Made by a program: the position numbers and the translations under genes | Source: Ectobacillus antri | GTDB taxonomy: Bacteria; Bacillota; Bacilli; Bacillales; Bacillaceae_G | Length of the DNA stretch: 64,000 nt | Reading direction: 5' to 3' | Assembly: GCF_003852715.1 (NCBI RefSeq) | Contig: NZ_RIAV01000001.1 | Coordinates: 124,001 to 188,000, forward strand | Shown here: in pieces, positions 7,926 through 64,000 of the stretch | Numbering within the stretch: position 1 is the first letter of the stretch | Layout: each line of letters begins with the position of its first letter | The notes under the pieces: model-generated | Database searches by the model: none | Told to the model about the DNA's origin: nothing | What the model saw: the letters and a program-made list of their open reading frames with translations, nothing else

Positions 7926-7958
7926 TAACCATTCTCCTCTCATTTTGGCAGGAGGTCA

Positions 7959-8100
7959 CAAAAAAGACCTCTGCCACCTTAGTGTTGGCAAAGGTCTTGC
8001 TAGACATGTTGGTAAATGTCAACAAAGCCGATGGAAAAATCCATGTAATGACGACTTTGTTACAGAAAGCTTAGCTTTCTGCCGCTACTCCCCTTTGGAG
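7959..8100 (-). promoter_or_regulatory. yybP-ykoY (Mn2+) riboswitch with terminator platform
   Basis: On the minus strand the leader begins with CCAAAGGGGAGTAGC (8098 downward), the hallmark 5' half of the yybP-ykoY aptamer, and ends with GCAAGACCTTTGCC (near 7990), the hallmark 3' half, which re-pairs with the CAAAGG. The same AAGACCTTTGCC can instead pair with GGCAGAGGTCTT, which is followed by a run of T (7959-7970): an intrinsic terminator. This gives a Mn2+-sensing switch between antitermination and termination upstream of a TerC gene, a known arrangement for this RNA. Confidence 0.9.
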
Positions 8101-8174
8101 TTATTTTCTTATCACTATTTTATGAAGGAAGGATGGTTCTGTCAACAATTTATATGAGATAAATATCTTATTTT

Positions 8175-27917: not shown

Positions 27918-28066
27918 AGTACGTTGGACTATATGGGAGATGGTTGTAAAAAATGATTGTTAAATTTCTGAAAAATAAGAATACGTTTTTTCTAATGTGC
28001 GATCTTTCTAAATATGGTAGAATAAATAGCGCTACAACAGAAGAAAATCCATGCGTAAAGCATGGG

Positions 28067-28136
28067 AGAGGTTCGCGAACTCCCTCTATAAAAAACTAAG
28101 GTAAACAACATCCTTAGGTGTTGTTTTCTGTTTTTT
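28067..28136 (+). promoter_or_regulatory. preQ1-I riboswitch with terminator
   Basis: AGAGGTTCGCGAA at 28067 and CCCTCTATAAAAAACTAA ending at 28099 match the preQ1-I aptamer: P1 AGAGG/CCTCT, then the A-rich tail and CTAA that forms the pseudoknot. AAACAACA (28103-28110) and TGTTGTTT (28119-28126) with a T run form the terminator. CTAAGG (28096-28101) can instead pair with CCTTAG (28112-28117), an antiterminator that competes with the ligand-bound fold. It lies upstream of queCDEF, its known target. Confidence 0.94.
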
Positions 28137-49876: not shown

Positions 49877-49901
49877 AGCTTGAGGCAAGCGCCTCAAGCT
49901 T
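49877..49901 (-). terminator. Terminator of the dlt operon
   Basis: AAGCTTGAGGC and GCCTCAAGCTT around AAGC-type loop; on the minus strand followed by TTTTTTATA. The dltD stop abuts it. Confidence 0.85.
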
Positions 49902-51078
49902 AGTTTGTTATGTGATGGAACTGTTTTAATGATTCATTCATATAAACCCAGCCTTTCCAGCCGATGTGAATGGTATCCTTCATGAAATATGTGTCGTATT
50001 CATGAGCAGAAAAGTCAGCGACTGGGAAACCATCTTTTTCTATAAAGTGACGAATCTTTTGATAATAGACGTAGCGGCGTTCTTTTGGAAACTCTGCATA
50101 GTCATACCAAGGACCGTTTACCGGAATGGAAACGAACAACGCCTTGGTGTTATTTTGTTTCAGTAAATCTAAAATCATTTGCAAATCCTCATACTCAGGT
50201 GATTTGTCATATGATTCCATTGCTTTATAGCCTTTGAGCTCGGAAAGCTTTGGTGCAACTTTATGATGATAGTATTTGTCCACAATACCAAACGTATTAG
50301 AACGTGATTCTCGAGCACCCGTTTGCTCCGCATGAGCAGATAGTTGTTCGAGTGATAAACCTTTTAAGGAAGCATCTGTATTTGGCTTTCGCTTCTTACC
50401 GTTTGTTAATGTAGTTACGATATCTTTACGCTCTAGCACGTTTTTATACGTGTAGGCGAATGGCTTCATAACACCGGCTTTACATGTGCGAATAAAATCA
50501 TCATGGACCAAACCCTCAAGCATGGTAGTCAGCAATTTGTCTTGTCTGACAACTTCAAACTTAAGAAGACGTTTCGCCGCCTTTTTTTTCATTTTTGGTG
50601 TTAAATTACTGTTGAAAACAAAGTCATATGCCTGTAATGTCGAGAAGTTAGGTGAAAAGTGTGCATCGTCTAATCCCTCTTTAATAAACCATTGAGGAGA
50701 CAAGATAAACACGATGCGTTGGTTTTTTATTTCATTTGATGTTGCTGCCAAACTTAAAAAATGCACAAGAGACTGTGTACCACCACGTCCAATCAGATAA
50801 GGCGTAAAGCCTTCCGGATTGATTTTAAAATAGTTGGAAGGGTGGTATATGTCCAGTCGTGATAATTCAGATGAACCGTATAACGGTAAGTATTTGTGGT
50901 CTTGTAACATTTTCTTTTGTATCGCGGTTCCTTGAAACATATCTGTATCCAAAGAGGTTGCTGCTTGTTCCACTTTATCATCACTAATTAAAGGGAATAA
51001 GTACTGTACAGGCATAAACAGTAGTATGCCAAACAGAGCTAGTGCTAAAAGAAAAGGACCGAATTTCGGGTGTTTCAT
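49900..51078 (-). CDS. dltD: D-alanine transfer protein DltD
   Basis: A 392-residue membrane-anchored protein with an N-terminal helix ([17 protein letters not shown]). The SGNH-like catalytic Ser is in [13 protein letters not shown], and the Asp/His pair is in the C-terminal [11 protein letters not shown]. DltD takes D-alanine from DltC/DltB to lipoteichoic acid outside the cell. It overlaps dltC by 4 bases and is the last gene of dltXABCD. Confidence 0.95.
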
Positions 51079-51314
51079 TTCATGTCAGCCAACTTTTGAA
51101 CAATCATGTTCGGTGTTGCCCATTCATCGCGGTCAAAGTCAGAGATGGATACTTCAATGTTCAAACGCTCTTGAATTTCTACAAGCAATGTTACTGTTCC
51201 AAATGAATCAAGAATCCCTTCTTCAAATAAAAGAATATCTGGATTTTCTTTGACGATGTCGTTTTCGCATACTTCTTCTAATAAGTCCAATACTTGCTCT
51301 TTAAATTGTGTCAT
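51075..51314 (-). CDS. dltC: D-alanyl carrier protein DltC
   Basis: A 79-residue acyl-carrier-like protein. The phosphopantetheine Ser37 is in [12 protein letters not shown] (DSF instead of DSL, normal for DltC). It carries D-alanine as a thioester from DltA to DltB. AAGGAGA precedes the ATG; it lies 28 bases after dltB. Confidence 0.96.
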
Positions 51315-51342
51315 GATAGATAGTCTCCTTTTAGATCAATTG

Positions 51343-52491
51343 TTATAAAAGTCGTCCTGAGAAAATCAAGAAACCGAACGCCACAAAGTGAAAGGTAATA
51401 ATAATAGAAACAACAGACATCCACTTGTGCTGTGGCCAAAATTTATGCTGCTTGTTTTTCCGTTCAAACCAATCAAACAGAACAAACAATAAAGCATGAT
51501 ATAAGCCGTATACGACATAATGTAGCTGTAAACCGTGCCAAATGCCCATAAGAAAGAAATTTAGGAAAAATCCAATATTGGATACAACATAGCGATTTTT
51601 AATAATTTTCTTCTTGGTCATAAAGAACACAAAGCGCATATAGACATAATCACGGAACCAGAATGATAGGCTCATATGCCAGCGATTCCAAAAGTCTTTA
51701 ATATTCCGGCTCAAAAATGGCTTATTAAAGTTTTCGGGTGTTTTAATCCCCATTAAATAGCTTACACCGATAGCAAATGCGCTATATCCAGCAAAGTCAA
51801 AAAACAAGTACAAGCTGTAGCCATACATATAAGTAATTTGTGGAATAAGACTGTCGCCTTTTACTACATCCGTTAGTAAAATGTATTGATTAATTAAGTA
51901 ACCAATAATGAACTTATACAAAAATCCTTGGAAAATTCTGTTGATGCCCGTATACAAAAATTCGCGATATTCTTCTTTAGACGGTATCTGGGCAATATCT
52001 TTTTGAAAACGGCGGTATCGATCAATTGGACCAGATGTAATCGTCGGGAAGAACAATAAAAAGCGTAAGAAGTCATACAAGGATACTTCTTTGATTTGTC
52101 CATCTCGAATTTCCATAATCATTTGCACGGCTTTGAATGTTAAATAGGAAATTCCTAAAAATCCAATTGCGCTAATGTCCGATAAAAACGGAATTACTTT
52201 CACAAGCACGAGCGGCAAAATCGACAGAATAACAGCACCATAAAACCTACGCGTTATATTATTTTGCTTACGAAGTTGTAAATACCCCTTCACAAGACTG
52301 GTTTGCCATATGGTAAATGCAATAAGAGAAAGAGCCTGCACTGGCTTACCACCAAAAATAATTGCCAATATCACAATCGTTACAATGGAGTTATACGTTC
52401 GTAAAGAATGACCTCGCAGTCCCGCGATGATAGAGGGCGCTAAAAGCAACGCCACAATGACAAAGAAGTAAAAGGTTGCGTAAGGTGTCAT
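51343..52491 (-). CDS. dltB: D-alanyl transfer membrane protein DltB (MBOAT)
   Basis: A 382-residue MBOAT-family protein with about 10-12 membrane helices. The active-site His is in [13 protein letters not shown]; the conserved [16 protein letters not shown] and [17 protein letters not shown] are also present. It moves D-alanine from DltC across the membrane. It overlaps dltA by 4 bases. Confidence 0.95.
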
Positions 52492-53981
52492 GCCGTAACC
52501 TCACTCATCAGCTTCTTGCGGTCTGCTTTTCCATTCGGTGTCATAGGAATAGATGACTGATACATAAATTTTCTTGGGATCATATAACTCGGAAGCAGAG
52601 AAGCTACCTCTTTTTTGATGGCGGAAGTAAGCTGAAACTCTTTTGCAAATGTATGATCTTCCGGTACAATGACTGCTAACAAGTGGTCGTACTTGCCATC
52701 TTTTTGAATGGGTAAAACCACAACGGATTTCACATAGCTGCTGCTGCGCAGATGATGTTCGATTTCTTCAAGTTCCATACGATAACCGTGTAGCTTGATT
52801 TGGAAATCCAAACGACCATTGTAAAATAATAGGTCATCCATCATATAACCTGCATCACCTGTTTTATATGCACGTTCACCATTTATGATAGTAAAGGATT
52901 TTTCTGTTAACTCTGGGCTACCAAGATAGCCAGTGCTCACACTTGGTCCCACAATCACAATTTCACCTTTTTCGCCTTCAGCTGCAATCGTACCATCTTC
53001 CTTTGTAATCAAAATACGGCAATCTGATTTACAACGACCCACAGGCAATGATTGATACTGATCAAGAATTTCTTTTGTCACTTCAATTTTTGTTACGGCA
53101 ACAGTTGCTTCCGTTGGTCCGTATGTGTTCATAATGCGTGCGTTTGGAAAGCGCTCAGATAAATGACGCGCCACATTATTGGATAAAACTTCTCCGCAGA
53201 ACAAAAATGTTCTCAAAGAAGGAAGCATTTCTGTGTTGAAAGATGGCTCCATTAAACACATTTCCGCAAAGGAAGGGGTTGATGTCCACACTTCCGTTCC
53301 TGATGCGGCTAACGAAGCAAATAATTCTTTTGGTTTCGCAATCATATCTTTATCGATTGCCCAAATTGTACCTCCTGTTACTAATGAAGGATATAAATCC
53401 ATAACAGATAAGTCAAATGAGAACGGTGCTTGGTTTAAAAATACCTTCCCGGTACCAAGATCAAAATCAGATGTCATCCAATCCGTGAAGCTTGTTAAGC
53501 AACTATGTGTAATTTGTACGCCTTTGGGGTTTCCTGTGCTTCCGGACGTATAAATAATATAGAAGTTTTTATCATTTTCTTGTTTTATAGGTGCAGGTTT
53601 ATCCGTCATAAATAAAGCTTTTAAAGCATCGCCTGCTTTCACAGTAAGCGGTAAGTCTGGTGCATCAGAAGCAGCAAGCATCAGCTTTGCACCAGAACTT
53701 TGCGCAATGCGAAGAACACGTTCTGTTGGAATGGATGTATCAACTGGAATATATGCATGACCCGCTTTGACGCACGCTAGAAAGGATACAATCATTTCAG
53801 GTTGCATATGACCATATACCATAATAGGGGCATCATCACTGTACTGTGCCGCGATCCAATGCGCAAGTGAATCGGAGTATGCTTTCAGCTCTCCATATGT
53901 TAATGTGCGGTCACGCCATATAAATGCGAGTGTATCAGGTTGTGTGACAGCCCATTGATCAATTTTTTTTAGTAAACTCAT
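52488..53981 (-). CDS. dltA: D-alanine--D-alanyl carrier protein ligase DltA
   Basis: A 497-residue adenylating enzyme. The P-loop [11 protein letters not shown] is at 144-154, followed by [24 protein letters not shown] and the C-terminal lysine motif [10 protein letters not shown]. It activates D-Ala with ATP and loads DltC. Length and order are standard. Confidence 0.96.
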
Positions 53982-59009: not shown

Positions 59010-60032
59010 ATGATGAAATTAAAAGTGGGAGTTATTGGATGTGGTAGCATCGCACAGCATCGCCATCTACCGGAATACGCAGCAAATGAGCAAGTAGAGT
59101 TAGTAGCAGTCTGTGATATTGTATCAGAGCGAGCTGAAGAAATTGCGACAAAGTATGGTGTACAAGCGTACACAAATTATGAAGATCTGTTTGCACACGT
59201 AGATGCAGTGAGCGTTTGTACACCAAACTACTTACATGCATCAATCACCATCGCGGCACTGCGTGCAGGGGTACATGTATTATGTGAAAAACCAATGGCA
59301 ACATCGAAGGAAGAGGCACAGGCCATGATTGCTGCAGCAAAAGAGAGCGGGAAAAAGCTTATGATTGCGCACAATCAACGTTTTGTCGCTTCTCATGAAA
59401 AAGCGCGTCAGCTGATTCAAAACGGAGAAGTCGGTAAAATTTATAGCTTCCGCACAGCATTTGGTCATCCGGGACCTGAGGGATGGAGCGTAGATGGTAA
59501 AGAGAGCTGGTTCTTCCAAAAGGAAAAAGCATTTCTCGGTGCAATGGGAGACCTTGGTGTTCATAAAACAGATTTACTGCGTTATGTACTCGGTGAGGAA
59601 TTTACAGAGGTTGGTGCCTTTGTAGAAACAACAGCAAAAGAATTTGCTGATGTTGATGACACAGCAGTATGTGTATTAAAAACGGAGAGTGGAATCATTG
59701 GTACCCTTGCGGCAAGCTGGTCATACCGCCGCGAAGATAACTCTACTATTATTTATGGTGAAAAAGCACTGCTTCGCATAGAAGATGACAGTACGTATGG
59801 CTTGATTGTACAGTATGCGACGGGTGAAACGGTCAAATATGAGCTTGGCAAAATTCAAACAAATGAGTCTGGTGGACAGCGAAACTCTCTTGTTATTGAA
59901 AAGTTTGTTGGCGCGATTCTCAACGATGAAGAGCCGGCTATTTCTGGCGAAGAGGGTATGAAATCGTTAGCAGTTATTCTAGCTGCACTGGAGTCAAATG
60001 AAACAAAACAAATTGTGAAGGTGACAGTATGA
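59010..60032 (+). CDS. Gfo/Idh/MocA-family oxidoreductase 1
   Basis: A 340-residue NAD(P)-dependent sugar dehydrogenase. The Rossmann motif is VGVIGCGSIAQHRHLP; the catalytic Lys is in VLCEKPMATS, and the active-site His/Asp are in GDLGVHKTDLLRY. GGGGGAAG precedes ATG 59010 (59013 also possible). It overlaps the second oxidoreductase by 4 bases. ThuB-like enzymes of this family oxidise the C3 hydroxyl of glucosides; that role here is an inference from the neighbours. Confidence 0.9.
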   Translation: MMKLKVGVIGCGSIAQHRHLPEYAANEQVELVAVCDIVSERAEEIATKYGVQAYTNYEDLFAHVDAVSVCTPNYLHASITIAALRAGVHVLCEKPMATSKEEAQAMIAAAKESGKKLMIAHNQRFVASHEKARQLIQNGEVGKIYSFRTAFGHPGPEGWSVDGKESWFFQKEKAFLGAMGDLGVHKTDLLRYVLGEEFTEVGAFVETTAKEFADVDDTAVCVLKTESGIIGTLAASWSYRREDNSTIIYGEKALLRIEDDSTYGLIVQYATGETVKYELGKIQTNESGGQRNSLVIEKFVGAILNDEEPAISGEEGMKSLAVILAALESNETKQIVKVTV

Positions 60033-61045
60033 TTCGAGTTGGTATCATCGGGGTGGGTGGTATTGCCAAAGGGCGCCACATCCCAGCTTTTTTACAGCTG
60101 TCTGACTTGTGTCAAGTGAAGGCGCTGAGCGATGTGAATATGGTACAAGCAAAAGAAGCGGCAGCACAATTTAACATTCCACACGTATTTGAGAATTACC
60201 AGGATATGTTTACGGAAGTTGATGCAGTATGTATTTGTACGCCGAATAAATTTCACGCGGAAATTTCCATTGCTGCGCTGGAAGCTGGTGTGCATGTATT
60301 ATGTGAAAAGCCGATGGCATTGTCTGCGGCAGAGTGTGAAGCGATGCTTGCTGCCTCTAAAAAAAGCGGTAAAGTACTTGCCATTGCATATCATTACCGC
60401 TTCATGAAAGAATTGCAGGCTGCGAAAAAGCTTATGCAAGAAGGAGAAATCGGTACACCGCTTGTGGCGCGGGTACAAGCGCTTCGCTACCGCAAAGTAC
60501 CCGGTTGGGGCGTGTTTACTAACAAAGCGTTGCAGGGCGGAGGTAGCTTAATTGATTATGGCTGTCATCTTTTGGACAGCGCTATTTGGTTAATGGGTAA
60601 TCCAAAGCATGTGACGGTAAATGGGTGCACTTATAATGTACTCAGCAAAACGCCAGGACAGGTGAATCAATGGGGTTCATTCAATCATGAAACGTTTGAT
60701 GTAGATGATCACGTAACAGCGTACATTACATTTGAAAATGGCGCCTCGTTATTGCTCGAGACCTCATGGGCGGCGAATATTAAGCAAGATACGGAGCACA
60801 TTAGTATTTCAGGCACGGCGGGCGGTCTCAACGTATTTCCGTTTGAATGGTACGGTGCTAAGCACGGTATGCTGTTTAACAGCGAAGCGGCGTGGATTCC
60901 AGGAGAAGAAGATCCAAGCATACCGCAGGCGGCTAACTTTTTAGCAGCTTGCATGGGAAAAGCTGAGCTTGTTGTAAAACCGGAAGAAGCATTACAGGTT
61001 TCGCAAATTATTGATGCTATTTATGAAAGTGCAGGACAATTGTAA
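60029..61045 (+). CDS. Gfo/Idh/MocA-family oxidoreductase 2
   Basis: A 338-residue paralogue of the preceding protein. Rossmann motif VGIIGVGGIAKGRHIPAF, catalytic Lys in VLCEKPMALS, active-site SLIDYGCHLLDSAIWLMG. Its His/Asp motif has the GCHLLD form rather than GVHKTD, which suggests a different substrate or direction of reaction (for example one enzyme oxidising and one reducing). Translation is coupled by the ATGA overlap. Confidence 0.9.
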   Translation: MIRVGIIGVGGIAKGRHIPAFLQLSDLCQVKALSDVNMVQAKEAAAQFNIPHVFENYQDMFTEVDAVCICTPNKFHAEISIAALEAGVHVLCEKPMALSAAECEAMLAASKKSGKVLAIAYHYRFMKELQAAKKLMQEGEIGTPLVARVQALRYRKVPGWGVFTNKALQGGGSLIDYGCHLLDSAIWLMGNPKHVTVNGCTYNVLSKTPGQVNQWGSFNHETFDVDDHVTAYITFENGASLLLETSWAANIKQDTEHISISGTAGGLNVFPFEWYGAKHGMLFNSEAAWIPGEEDPSIPQAANFLAACMGKAELVVKPEEALQVSQIIDAIYESAGQL

Positions 61046-61059
61046 AGGGGGAGAATCAT

Positions 61060-62028
61060 TTGAAATTGGGAGTGTTCACGGTACTATTTGCCGATAAATC
61101 ATTTACAGATATGCTGGATACGGTGCAAGCAGCAGGATTACAGGCGGTTGAAATTGGCACGGGCTGCTATCCGGGTAGTGCACATTGCGACCTTGATGGA
61201 TTGCTTGCAAGTGAAGAGGCGCGCAAAGCATACATGCATGAAATTGACAAACGCGGTTTAACTATTAGTGCGTTCAGCTGTCACGGTAATCCGATTTCAC
61301 CAGACACAGATTTTGCCCAAGTATCGCATGAAACGCTACTAAAAACAATTGAGTTAGCTTCTTTGCTACAAGTGCCGGTGGTGAACTGCTTCTCAGGAAC
61401 AGCAGGCGACCATGAAGGCGCTAAGCACCCGAACTGGCCGGTAACGGCTTGGCCAAACGAATACAATGATGTACTTCGCTGGCAGTGGGAAGAAAAACTA
61501 ATACCGTATTGGAAAGAAGTAGGTGCATTTGCGAAGAAGCGTAACGTAAAAATTGGTTTAGAACTGCACGGCGGCTTTTTAGTGCATACACCCTATACCC
61601 TTCTTAAGCTTCGTGAAGCAACATGCGACGCAATTGGTGCTAACCTTGACCCAAGTCACTTATGGTGGCAAGGCATTGACCCAGTAGCTGCTATTAAAAT
61701 TTTAGCAAAAGAAGGCGCCATTCATCATTTTCATGCAAAGGACACTTATATCGATCAGGACAATGTCAATATGTATGGTTTAACGGATATGCAGCCGTAC
61801 GGCAGTGTGCAAACACGCGCATGGACATTCCGCTCTGTCGGTTGCGGTCATAGTCTACAAGAATGGTCTGATATGATGAGCATGCTGCGCACATATGGCT
61901 ATGACTATGTTGTGAGTATTGAACATGAGGACCCAATCATGTCGATTGAAGAAGGTTTTAAGCGAGCGGTAACAAATCTGTCAGCGGTTTTAATTAAAGA
62001 ACAACCTTCTCAAATGTGGTGGGTGTAG
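61060..62028 (+). CDS. Sugar phosphate isomerase/epimerase (TIM barrel, IolE/IolI type)
   Basis: A 322-residue AP-endonuclease-like TIM-barrel protein. Metal-binding residues are in IGLELHGGF (Glu), ANLDPSHLWWQG (Asp, His), IHHFHAKD (His) and VVSIEHEDP (Glu). TTG start after AAGGGGGAG. Family members include inosose dehydratase, hexulose epimerases and the enzymes that process 3-keto-glycosides. It ends the operon; a hairpin follows at the stop. Confidence 0.88.
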   Translation: MKLGVFTVLFADKSFTDMLDTVQAAGLQAVEIGTGCYPGSAHCDLDGLLASEEARKAYMHEIDKRGLTISAFSCHGNPISPDTDFAQVSHETLLKTIELASLLQVPVVNCFSGTAGDHEGAKHPNWPVTAWPNEYNDVLRWQWEEKLIPYWKEVGAFAKKRNVKIGLELHGGFLVHTPYTLLKLREATCDAIGANLDPSHLWWQGIDPVAAIKILAKEGAIHHFHAKDTYIDQDNVNMYGLTDMQPYGSVQTRAWTFRSVGCGHSLQEWSDMMSMLRTYGYDYVVSIEHEDPIMSIEEGFKRAVTNLSAVLIKEQPSQMWWV

Positions 62029-62055
62029 AAGACGCAAATGCGTCTTCTTTGTTTT
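62028..62055 (+). terminator. Terminator of the sugar operon
   Basis: GAAGACGCA, AA, TGCGTCTTC then TTTGTTTT. Confidence 0.85.
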
Positions 62056-62334
62056 ATATGAAAATTGTATCTTTTTAAGAACGGTATAAGAACAGAGTAT
62101 GATAGGAAACGTGTAAAAATCATATAATCTATCAATTATCACATCGAAATTGTATATGTTTTTTCTGATAATTTATATTGACCTGTTCACTATAAAGAAC
62201 TAAAATGATATAGTACATGAATATATTATGGTTATTGAAATCAGTTCCGCCTTCAACCATAACATGACCGACCGGGAATATACACGGAGATGCTGGTGGT
62301 TTGTACGTACAAAAAATAATAAACGGAGGGAACC
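62056..62334. other. 280-base leader region of the eps operon
   Basis: No gene seen. AT-rich; TTGACC near 62179 is the only -35-like element, without a well-spaced -10. Regulation of this operon (SinR, Spo0A-type sites) could not be read with confidence. Confidence 0.4.
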
Positions 62335-63033
62335 ATGGAAAAAGAGATTAATTTAAAAAGCCTGTTCAACGTTATTAAAAGAAGAATAATGGTTGTTGCC
62401 GTGTTTACTCTATTGGCAGGACTGGTCGGTACTATATATACATTCTACCTAAAAACACCATTGTACGCTTCTTCAGCACGAATTCTAATTCAGGCTACAC
62501 CTGAAGCAATGAATACATTACGCGTTATTATTAAAGAACCGGTTGTGATGCAGCGTGTTGCACAAGAACTTAACTTGCCACAATCACTAGGTGCGTTAAG
62601 TGGGCAAATTAGTACAGAAAATCTACAAGGATCCCAAATTGTTATCATTACCGCAGTTGATCCAATTGCTGCTAGAGCAGTGGATATCGTGAATGCTACA
62701 GCCACGATTTACAAAGAAGAAGTTGCGCGCATTATGAACTTTAGCGGTGTACAAATTCTTGCCGAGGCTGAAATGTCTCCTTATCCGATGCCTATTAACC
62801 AAAATCATGTATCTACCATTATCATGGCTCTGTTAGTGGGTTGTGTACTTAGCATTGGTTTAGTATTCTTGTTAGATTCCTTTGATGATACAATTAAATC
62901 TGAGCGAGATGTTGAGAAGCTACTGGGTGTTCCTGTATTGGGAAGTGTGTCTAAAAACACTCGTCAAAACACGTCTGATAAGTACAGCAAAAAGCACCTT
63001 GAAGCACTGAGGGGGGAATCCATTGGTTCATAA
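62335..63033 (+). CDS. Chain-length/kinase-modulator protein (Wzz domain, EpsA/CapA-like)
   Basis: A 232-residue polysaccharide co-polymerase. Two membrane helices (about 17-37 and 160-178) flank an extracellular Wzz domain; FLLDSFDDTIKSERDVEKLLGVPVLGSV is the conserved cytoplasmic end that activates the partner tyrosine kinase. GGAGG lies 6-8 bases before the ATG. It overlaps the kinase gene by 11 bases. Confidence 0.9.
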   Translation: MEKEINLKSLFNVIKRRIMVVAVFTLLAGLVGTIYTFYLKTPLYASSARILIQATPEAMNTLRVIIKEPVVMQRVAQELNLPQSLGALSGQISTENLQGSQIVIITAVDPIAARAVDIVNATATIYKEEVARIMNFSGVQILAEAEMSPYPMPINQNHVSTIIMALLVGCVLSIGLVFLLDSFDDTIKSERDVEKLLGVPVLGSVSKNTRQNTSDKYSKKHLEALRGESIGS

Positions 63034-63646
63034 TAAAAAGCCTGTGTCGTATACGGCGCCAAATTCTAAGGTTTCTGAGCAGTATCGTTTAGTTCGAACA
63101 AATTTACAATTCTCTGCAGAAGAAGAAAAAACCATTATTATTACATCACCTAGTTATGGGGAAGGAAAAACAACAGTAGCTGCCAACATTGCAGTTTCAA
63201 TGGCACAGCAGGGAGAAAATGTGCTGCTGATTGATGCTGATTTAAGAAAACCGGAACTACATATCATCTTTGCTGCAGATAACAGTACAGGATTAACGAG
63301 CATTCTAGCAGGAAAAGCAAAGTACGAAGCAACGCTACAAGAAACTGAGATTGCGGGATTGCATATATTAACAGCAGGTCCGTATGTTCACAATCCAGCA
63401 GAACATTTGAGTATGCCAACAATGAAACAACTGATTGATATGGTACGTAAACAATATGATTTTATATTATTTGATACACCCCCTATTTTAGAGGTAACCG
63501 ATACAAATGTATTGGCAAATCAATGCGATGGTGTTGTACTGGTTATAAAAAGCAATCATACAGATGCAGAAGCCGCTAAAGAAGCGCAGCGTATCTTAGG
63601 ATTCGCCAACAGTAAACTTTTAGGTGCTGTACTGAATCATAAGTAA
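63023..63646 (+). CDS. Bacterial tyrosine kinase of CpsD/CapB/EpsB type
   Basis: A 207-residue BY-kinase: Walker A SPSYGEGKTT (42-51), Walker A' VLLIDADLRKPE (67-78), Walker B FILFDTPP. TTG start after GAGGGGGGAA. It phosphorylates tyrosines to regulate exopolysaccharide assembly. The usual C-terminal tyrosine cluster is absent: the protein ends GAVLNHK and the stop follows at once. It could lack autophosphorylation, or phosphorylate other proteins. Confidence 0.9.
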   Translation: MVHNKKPVSYTAPNSKVSEQYRLVRTNLQFSAEEEKTIIITSPSYGEGKTTVAANIAVSMAQQGENVLLIDADLRKPELHIIFAADNSTGLTSILAGKAKYEATLQETEIAGLHILTAGPYVHNPAEHLSMPTMKQLIDMVRKQYDFILFDTPPILEVTDTNVLANQCDGVVLVIKSNHTDAEAAKEAQRILGFANSKLLGAVLNHK

Positions 63647-63663
63647 TACATATAGCTTGAACC

Positions 63664-63699
63664 ACAAGTCTATGTTCTTTTTTAAGAACATAGACTTGT
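63664..63699. other. Perfect 16-bp stem-loop between epsB-like gene and the EAR-like RNA
   Basis: ACAAGTCTATGTTCTT and its exact complement around TTTT. No T run follows, so it is not a classic terminator; it may stabilise or process the mRNA. Confidence 0.6.
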
Positions 63700-63782
63700 G
63701 TAAGCTAAAAAATCATTTTTATGATAAGAGTATTCCGTTATTAAAAATCTATAGTTTATATTAGAGAAATATGTACTGTTTT

Positions 63783-63900
63783 ATAAGGTGATGTCTCCTA
63801 ACCTTTAGCAATGGAGGCACTCGGTTATGCTGTGGGCTGTTGCCTTAGACGTTCATCGTCGAGAGTGTGGCGTGAGGAAGGGTTCGATGCCCTGTATTTT
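63783..63900 (+). ncRNA. EAR (epsC-type) antitermination RNA
   Basis: A 118-base structured region without an open frame, with conserved-looking blocks GGTGATGTCTCCTAACC, CAATGGAGGCACTCGGT, GTGGGCTGTTGCCTTAGAC, GAGTGTGGCGTGAGGAAGGG and TTCGATGCCCTGTA. It lies between the second (kinase) and third genes of an eps operon, exactly where the EAR element is found in B. subtilis, and is followed by a strong hairpin. EAR lets RNA polymerase read through distant terminators in the long eps operon. I call it from position and remembered sequence; a covariance-model match is needed to confirm. Confidence 0.75.
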
Positions 63901-63901
63901 A

Positions 63902-63960
63902 TAAAGTTTTTGCCTGGAACACCTTGAAACAGGGTGCTGCAGGCAAAAACTTTATTATAT
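63902..63960 (+). terminator. Terminator downstream of the EAR-like RNA
   Basis: AAAGTTTTTGCCTG pairs with CAGGCAAAAACTTT, with an inner stem CACCTT/AGGGTG and GAAA-type loop, followed by ATTATATTTC. It would stop transcription before the rest of the eps operon unless antiterminated. Confidence 0.85.
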
Positions 63961-63978
63961 TTCAGGAAGGAGTTCTTT

Positions 63979-64000
63979 ATGACGTACAAACAAAGAATGA
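63979..64000 (+). CDS. Start of a third eps gene (cut by window end)
   Basis: Only the first seven codons (MTYKQRM) are present, after GGAAGGAG at good spacing. By position after the kinase and EAR-like RNA it should be the EpsC-type nucleoside-diphosphate sugar epimerase/dehydratase; too little sequence remains to show this. Confidence 0.5.

Follow-up and report, generated by a model that had tools for sequence, protein, structure and literature searches.

A 64,000-nucleotide stretch of the Ectobacillus antri genome (the window) carries a true EAR, a processive antitermination RNA with which bacteria transcribe extended gene clusters for slime polymers, in an eps-type operon. Upstream of it lies an inverted repeat that resembles operators of the biofilm repressor SinR, and just downstream a terminator-like hairpin. 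Given that the EAR is flanked by this second putative SinR operator and by the hairpin, we propose that the SinR-type operator, the EAR and the terminator-like hairpin together form a gate ahead of the third gene; we put the probability of this reading at roughly 0.6. The RNA itself is already known, and the paired operator and adjacent hairpin are the new part. The operator–EAR–hairpin layout is found in many relatives and not in the copies examined from the Bacillus subtilis group. The features are, in order:

62178–62206, + strand: eps promoter, TTGACC - 17 bp - TAAAAT (promoter scan; same in the sister genome G003)
62185–62200, no strand: operator 1 (putative), SinR-type inverted repeat GTTCACTATAAAGAAC in the -35/-10 spacer (GTTC-N8-GAAC match)
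62335–63033, + strand: epsA-like gene, Wzz chain-length determinant (PF02706, E 2.2e-9, over cut-off)
63023–63646, + strand: epsB-like gene, BY-type tyrosine autokinase (TIGR01007, 200.8 bits, cut-off 108)
63655–63705, + strand: long stem-loop with TTTT loop and no T-run (fold)
63674–63689, no strand: operator 2 (putative, EAR-proximal), SinR-type inverted repeat GTTCTTTTTTAAGAAC, core of the stem-loop (GTTC-N8-GAAC match)
63786–63893, + strand: EAR (epsC RNA, RF01735) with pseudoknot AGGU/ACCU (Rfam covariance model, covariation)
63901–63955, + strand: downstream hairpin, long stem, terminator-like (fold)
63951–63962, + strand: imperfect U-tract TTTATTATATTT (U score)
63964–63972, + strand: ribosome-binding site AGGAAGGAG of the third gene, outside the hairpin (read directly)
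63979–64000, + strand: start of the CapD/EpsC-like gene, 604 aa, which runs past the window (L031:1979–3793; PF02719, Polysacc_synt_2, E 7.2e-127)

The EAR and its operon

An earlier note, made from the letters of the window, had proposed an EAR and called for a covariance-model search. That search matches RF01735 with 107.7 bits (gathering score 42; E 9.8e-18) over model positions 1–117 of 117, and the match is the one EAR that an Rfam scan finds in the whole 64-kb window. The helices covary too: in an alignment of 32 EARs that includes the window copy, 98.1% of cells in the 33 helix pairs are paired, 15 of the 33 pairs have changed on both sides, and none of 500 shuffles reached any of five measures. 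A pseudoknot in the EAR is predicted in PMC2864571. With bases assigned to it by reading the alignment, columns 1–4 pair with columns 17–20 in 96.9% of cells and add two pairs changed on both sides, giving 17 of 37 for helices and pseudoknot together (0/500 shuffles as high); in pair 1–20 both sides have changed in 14 of the 32 sequences. The EAR's own last hairpin (63879–63893, AGGGTTCGATGCCCT) and the T-rich stretch after it appear terminator-like in a terminator scan, and by eye the same is seen in several relatives.

The proposed position holds as well: a Wzz/BY-kinase pair precedes the EAR and a CapD/EpsC-like gene follows it, and the B. subtilis EAR likewise lies between the second and third gene (PMC7858274, PMC10653937). 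The epsA-like gene also resembles NCBIfam TIGR01006, with an E value of 2e-30 that is under the cut-off. Judged by eye, ORFs in the 16 kb beyond the CapD/EpsC-like gene resemble glycosyltransferases and a flippase-like protein. Sense-strand terminator candidates lie inside ORFs at L031:5915, 13658 and 15218; over 20 kb of the operon the terminator-like sites on both strands number 13, which is not above chance (9.2 expected, sd 3.6).

The description of the EAR as rare is not supported by a search of 397 genomes, a sample drawn from a larger group of the order: 255 have one (254 over the cut-off). Within the family, matches occur in 19 of 19 genomes, in 18 of them over the cut-off. This genome has a second EAR (C26:6972–7086, 113.7 bits), with another Wzz/BY-kinase pair on one side and galU on the other. 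In nine family genomes the match is 213–223 nt long and scores 88–98 bits, which suggests an insertion of roughly 100 nt within the EAR; seven such loci were fetched (L024–L030, from 1501 to 1713–1723). The same-genus genome G001 has only a weak EAR match (L020:1501–1607; 39.4 bits, below the gathering score) and no SinI-domain match.

SinR-type repeats at the promoter and near the EAR

Upstream of the EAR the earlier note had described a perfect 16-bp stem-loop without a T run. The stem-loop and the missing T run stand, and the length does not: the perfect stem has 17 pairs (63663–63679 with 63684–63700), with five outer pairs beyond it, and the structure reaches −29.3 kcal/mol (z −8.7; 0/200 shuffles equally stable). 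As a terminator this hairpin was rejected, given that neither strand has a T-run and the terminator scan does not list it. Protection or processing of the mRNA, the role suggested for it, is not the best reading either; its core resembles a SinR operator.

Judged from its sequence, the EAR-proximal repeat is probably a SinR-type operator. The motif was checked against one paper, PMC3163267, which gives the SinR consensus GTTCTYT and an inverted-repeat duplex, TTTGTTCTCTAAAGAGAACTTA, bound with a Kd of 300 nM. Set against GTTCTYT as an inverted repeat with a 2-bp gap, GTTCTTTTTTAAGAAC is exact in the left half and agrees at 6 of 7 positions in the right half (GTTCTTA). LexA half-sites have the opposite orientation to this GTTC/GAAC repeat, and a LexA reading was therefore set aside.

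GTTC-N8-GAAC matches the 64-kb window twice, against 0.69 expected, a count that alone says little given that two or more matches also arose in 15 of 100 shuffles. The places carry the weight: one repeat lies within the eps promoter and the other 96 nt upstream of the EAR, 1489 bp from the first. Genome-wide, GTTCT-N6-AGAAC occurs at 8 places and a backwards-pattern control at 11; hence only placement is informative here as well. One of the eight lies before tapA-sipW-tasA (SipW is named by NF046067; TapA and TasA were recognized by eye), one before each of the two EARs and five elsewhere; the three of these five that were inspected (C3, C10, C34) showed no clear biofilm gene. The genome also has SinR-like and SinI-like ORFs at C1:84405–84882. 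The ORF at C1:84405 matches the SinI domain with 60.2 bits, over the Pfam cut-off, and phmmer aligns the SinR-like ORF along its length with SinR of solved structure (E 2.3e-40), the DNA-binding HTH region being near-identical; no NCBIfam model was over its cut-off for either ORF. A second SinI-like ORF of 47 aa (G000:C56:173053–173133) lies away from the sinR locus.

Relatives were surveyed at 139 oriented EAR loci from 121 genomes, which are the best-scoring matches (140 before L021, a contig fragment, was dropped). Within 300 nt upstream, 24 of the 139 EARs have an exact GTTC-N8-GAAC, against 0.3 expected by single-base shuffling, and within 600 nt downstream only one does. Closer in, within 130 nt upstream, the exact repeat is found at 22 loci (0.2 expected) and a repeat with at most one mismatch at 51 (3.95 expected); the corresponding numbers within 130 nt downstream are 0 and 9. 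The class GTTC-N8-GAA near the EAR has 46 members against 1.08 expected, with one downstream. Four of the 46 (L025, L027, L028 and L029; identical, at −74) lie by eye in the upstream reading frame and were dropped, leaving 42 loci in 41 genomes. What is conserved is sequence and not pairing alone, with the consensus TTTTTTGTTCTTTATTAAGAACAAAATT, in which the four dropped rows are included. SinI-domain proteins are present in every one of the 23 genomes in which an exact repeat lies in the 300 nt upstream of an EAR (within 130 nt in 21 of these), compared with 74 of 98 other EAR genomes (Fisher p 0.007, relatedness ignored). In ten genomes with two EARs the repeat stands at one and is absent from the other, a count that leaves aside genomes whose second EAR has only the dropped coding stretch.

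The occurrence of the EAR-proximal repeat is tied to that of the promoter operator. We read 2.6 kb upstream of 80 EARs, 40 of which had not been chosen by repeat, accepting an EAR-proximal repeat with at most one mismatch and, at the promoter, a repeat lying in a spacer whose flanking boxes score at least 9/12. The 40 unchosen loci divide into 7 with both, 30 with neither, 2 with the promoter repeat only and 1, a poor match, with the EAR-proximal repeat only (Fisher p 1.5e-5; these co-occurrence counts take related genomes as independent). Four of the 30 (L249, L250, L255, L267) do carry an exact repeat, located between −1540 and −1943, but lack boxes of this kind. Under a laxer rule that takes any exact repeat from −1300 to −1950, with or without boxes, the numbers become 7 both, 26 neither, 6 promoter only and 1 EAR-proximal only (p 6e-4). 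Among 20 loci chosen for an exact EAR-proximal repeat, 18 have the promoter repeat; 20 loci chosen for lacking an exact one, in SinI-domain genomes, split into 11 with both, all with one mismatch in the repeat near the EAR, and 9 with neither. Counted by genus, with some genera standing in two cells, there are 15 both, 24 neither, 2 promoter only and 3 EAR-proximal only.

Such co-occurrence also speaks for a reading in which the EAR is irrelevant, and the repeat is an auxiliary SinR operator that serves only DNA looping with the promoter operator, lying in the first sizeable downstream non-coding gap. We consider looping alone rather unlikely on account of where the repeat sits. In G087, G371 and G274 the apparent promoter operator is 209, 119 and 118 nt before the EAR, and a separate second repeat is nevertheless kept at −40, −16 and −16; the repeat therefore keeps to the EAR even where epsAB cannot lie between. 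The gap to the EAR argues in the same direction, with the 3' end of the repeat 13–34 nt before the EAR in 32 of the 42 loci; it is 96 nt in the window and in G003.

A different alternative is that the upstream element works as RNA, as a 3'-end or processing hairpin that parts the epsAB mRNA from the remaining transcript, with the downstream hairpin capping the processed epsC mRNA at its 5' end. The strength of the 17–22 bp stem is in its favor, as are B. subtilis-group downstream hairpins without a visible U-tract, and so are the arms outside the 16-bp core. These have 11 further pairs in the window and 10 in each of G003 and G011, and in a comparison of the window with G003 none of the first ten has lost its pairing, while five have changed on both sides. 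Hence selection in this genus may also act on an RNA hairpin or cruciform, or template switching may keep the palindrome perfect, given that template-switch correction of palindromes can mimic covariation; the long covarying arms leave room for an extra RNA role of the stem-loop. Across the relatives, however, 21 of 24 exact sites have just 0–4 pairs past the core, and the conservation of core sequence and the tracking of the promoter operator count against an RNA role, which we regard as unlikely.

The EAR-proximal repeat could also sit in a SinR-repressed internal promoter for the third gene onward, given that promoter operators of this group do occupy -35/-10 spacers and that, among EAR-proximal sites, L135 reaches 8/12 in its boxes and L139 7/12. 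Such a promoter is very improbable: box matches around exact EAR-proximal repeats average 5.25/12 (7.15 in the promoter set; 6/12 in the window), and the scan has no match between 63700 and 63786. A value of 9/12 is reached only by the −119 site of G371 and the −118 site of G274, which resemble the operon's own promoter operators. As the general case, an internal promoter between the BY-kinase gene and the EAR was rejected on the 5.25/12 average.

In the B. subtilis group, represented by L170 (B. spizizenii), L185 (B. tequilensis), L188 (B. mojavensis), L213 (B. inaquosorum) and L219 (Bacillus sp. SKDU12, placed in the group by its sequence), none of the five loci has a repeat near the EAR. 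The four that can be read far enough have a promoter-region repeat at −1518 to −1537, without consensus boxes by the rule; L170 has only 253 nt upstream, which puts its promoter out of reach. For B. thuringiensis, PMC3909190 describes eps orthologues with a predicted EAR and no SinR control, and PMC4475387 is similar. In G160 and G210 (L251, L271) three further exact GTTC-N8-GAAC repeats occur at −2029 to −2302 from the EAR, about 0.4–0.7 kb upstream of the eps promoter. SinI-domain matches lie about 3 kb upstream of the EAR in these two genomes, and sinIR may therefore adjoin eps there, with sites of its own.

The hairpin downstream of the EAR

The downstream hairpin of the window has −32.3 kcal/mol (z −5.9; 0/200 shuffles equally stable). 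That the EAR directly precedes a strong terminator, as had been claimed, was half right: a strong hairpin does stand next to the EAR, but its U-tract is imperfect and a simple terminator scan of 60000–64000 does not list it. With a U score devised for this analysis, the tract reaches 3.66 on the sense strand and 2.88 on the antisense strand. The downstream hairpin of G003 has 2.96 and 2.88, and a terminator-like site at 62027–62048 in the window has 4.03.

Hairpins in this position are frequent. A single one of −20 kcal/mol or stronger begins within 45 nt of the EAR in 80 of 138 loci (L004, with 57 nt downstream, was dropped). The same criterion is passed by 8 of 690 dinucleotide shuffles, by 11 of the 138 coding stretches and by 20 of the 138 upstream stretches; a first, laxer criterion had been replaced after 253 of 417 shuffles passed it. 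At −18 kcal/mol, 53 of the 138 EARs have no downstream hairpin. Among the 85 hairpins at or below this value, a U score of at least 3.5, with truncated stems allowed, is reached by 32 on the sense strand and by 10 on the antisense strand, leaving 53 below 3.5 on the sense strand. Simple counting of Ts in the 13-nt tail shows no enrichment (4.76 vs 4.59 expected), and the hairpin as a general terminator was rejected on this count. The terminator claim is restricted to a subset of loci, given that the sense bias came only after truncated stems were allowed. After the downstream hairpins of the five B. subtilis-group loci no U-tract is visible. Hairpins occur in 32 of the 42 loci with an EAR-proximal repeat and in 53 of the 96 others (p 0.023, relatedness ignored).

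It is possible, if somewhat doubtful, that the downstream hairpin is not a terminator and that the EAR acts on distal terminators only, as in B. subtilis, where the published account is of distal terminators (PMC7858274). The imperfect U-tract of the window and the near-equal U scores of the two strands in G003 are in keeping with this. The sense bias of the U-tracts is not, nor is the second EAR of this genome, which is followed by a hairpin with seven Ts.

The proposed gate and known systems

From this arrangement we infer that SinR would bind the EAR-proximal site and act there as a roadblock or by looping, and that the hairpin would terminate transcription where the EAR does not give read-through. 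While SinR is active, it would repress transcription at the promoter operator, and polymerases that leak through would be halted by SinR at the EAR-proximal operator before an EAR is made. As an alternative or added role, a SinR tetramer could bridge the two operators in a promoter-to-EAR DNA loop. Once SinI removes SinR, polymerase would reach the EAR, and the nascent EAR would modify it, as the B. subtilis element is known to do, enabling it to read through the adjacent hairpin and intragenic terminators farther on. EAR read-through of intrinsic terminators is known for B. subtilis (PMC7858274, PMC11658703). We hold the roadblock at the EAR-proximal site only tentatively, and the roadblock, loop-only, RNA-role and internal-promoter readings are not mutually exclusive.

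More broadly, and with less than even confidence, we suggest that many Bacillales eps operons have a composite gate in which a SinR operator within the transcribed region blocks elongating polymerase just ahead of an EAR, which is followed directly by a terminator. If so, the roadblock would shield the antitermination RNA from stray polymerases, and SinR would govern both initiation and which polymerases may become termination-resistant. If the EAR-proximal operator is a roadblock, repression and processive antitermination would be coupled at one place, and the model species would be without this coupling; the B. subtilis group, in which the EAR was studied, appears to lack the roadblock.

The window EAR resembles the B. 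subtilis epsA-O EAR in its full-length model match, helices, pseudoknot and position between the BY-kinase gene and the third gene of a polysaccharide operon. It differs in having a SinR-type operator 96 nt upstream, inside the transcribed operon, and a downstream hairpin with a partial U-tract. With the SinR operators of the eps and tapA (yqxM) promoters, the repeat shares the inverted GTTCT half-sites and the spacing of the published 22-bp duplex, in a genome that has SinR-like and SinI-like ORFs and a site at its tapA-type operon. Unlike those operators, the window copy has no promoter boxes, is located in transcribed DNA 1.49 kb past the promoter operator and stands at the tip of a 17–22 bp palindrome. 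In auxiliary operators of the lac O2 type and in repressor roadblocks, too, one repressor has a further operator beyond the start site; in the window, by contrast, the second operator directly precedes a processive antitermination RNA.

The LoaP leader of dfn in B. velezensis likewise has an RNA element and then an intrinsic-terminator hairpin in the same leader (PMC12691694), but the factor there, LoaP, is a paralogue of NusG and binds to a small UNCG hairpin, whereas the EAR is a pseudoknotted RNA of about 110 nt. In the part of PMC11658703 available to us no protein factor is identified for the EAR, and how it acts on polymerase and whether host factors are involved are described as still open. 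A literature search over titles and abstract starts, in which the 2010 EAR paper was not covered, turned up no description of a SinR site beside an EAR. At loci with a hairpin a few nucleotides beyond the EAR and, some tens of nucleotides ahead of it, a SinR-type site, a single short template could serve for measuring termination, read-through and repressor control.

Elsewhere in the window, a PreQ1 riboswitch (28062–28105, + strand, 50.7 bits) and a yybP-ykoY manganese riboswitch (7940–8105, − strand, 49.4 bits) are both over their gathering scores. A dltABCD-like operon at 49900–53981 (− strand) was recognized by eye from an AMP-dependent ligase, an MBOAT-like protein, a carrier protein and a DltD-like protein.
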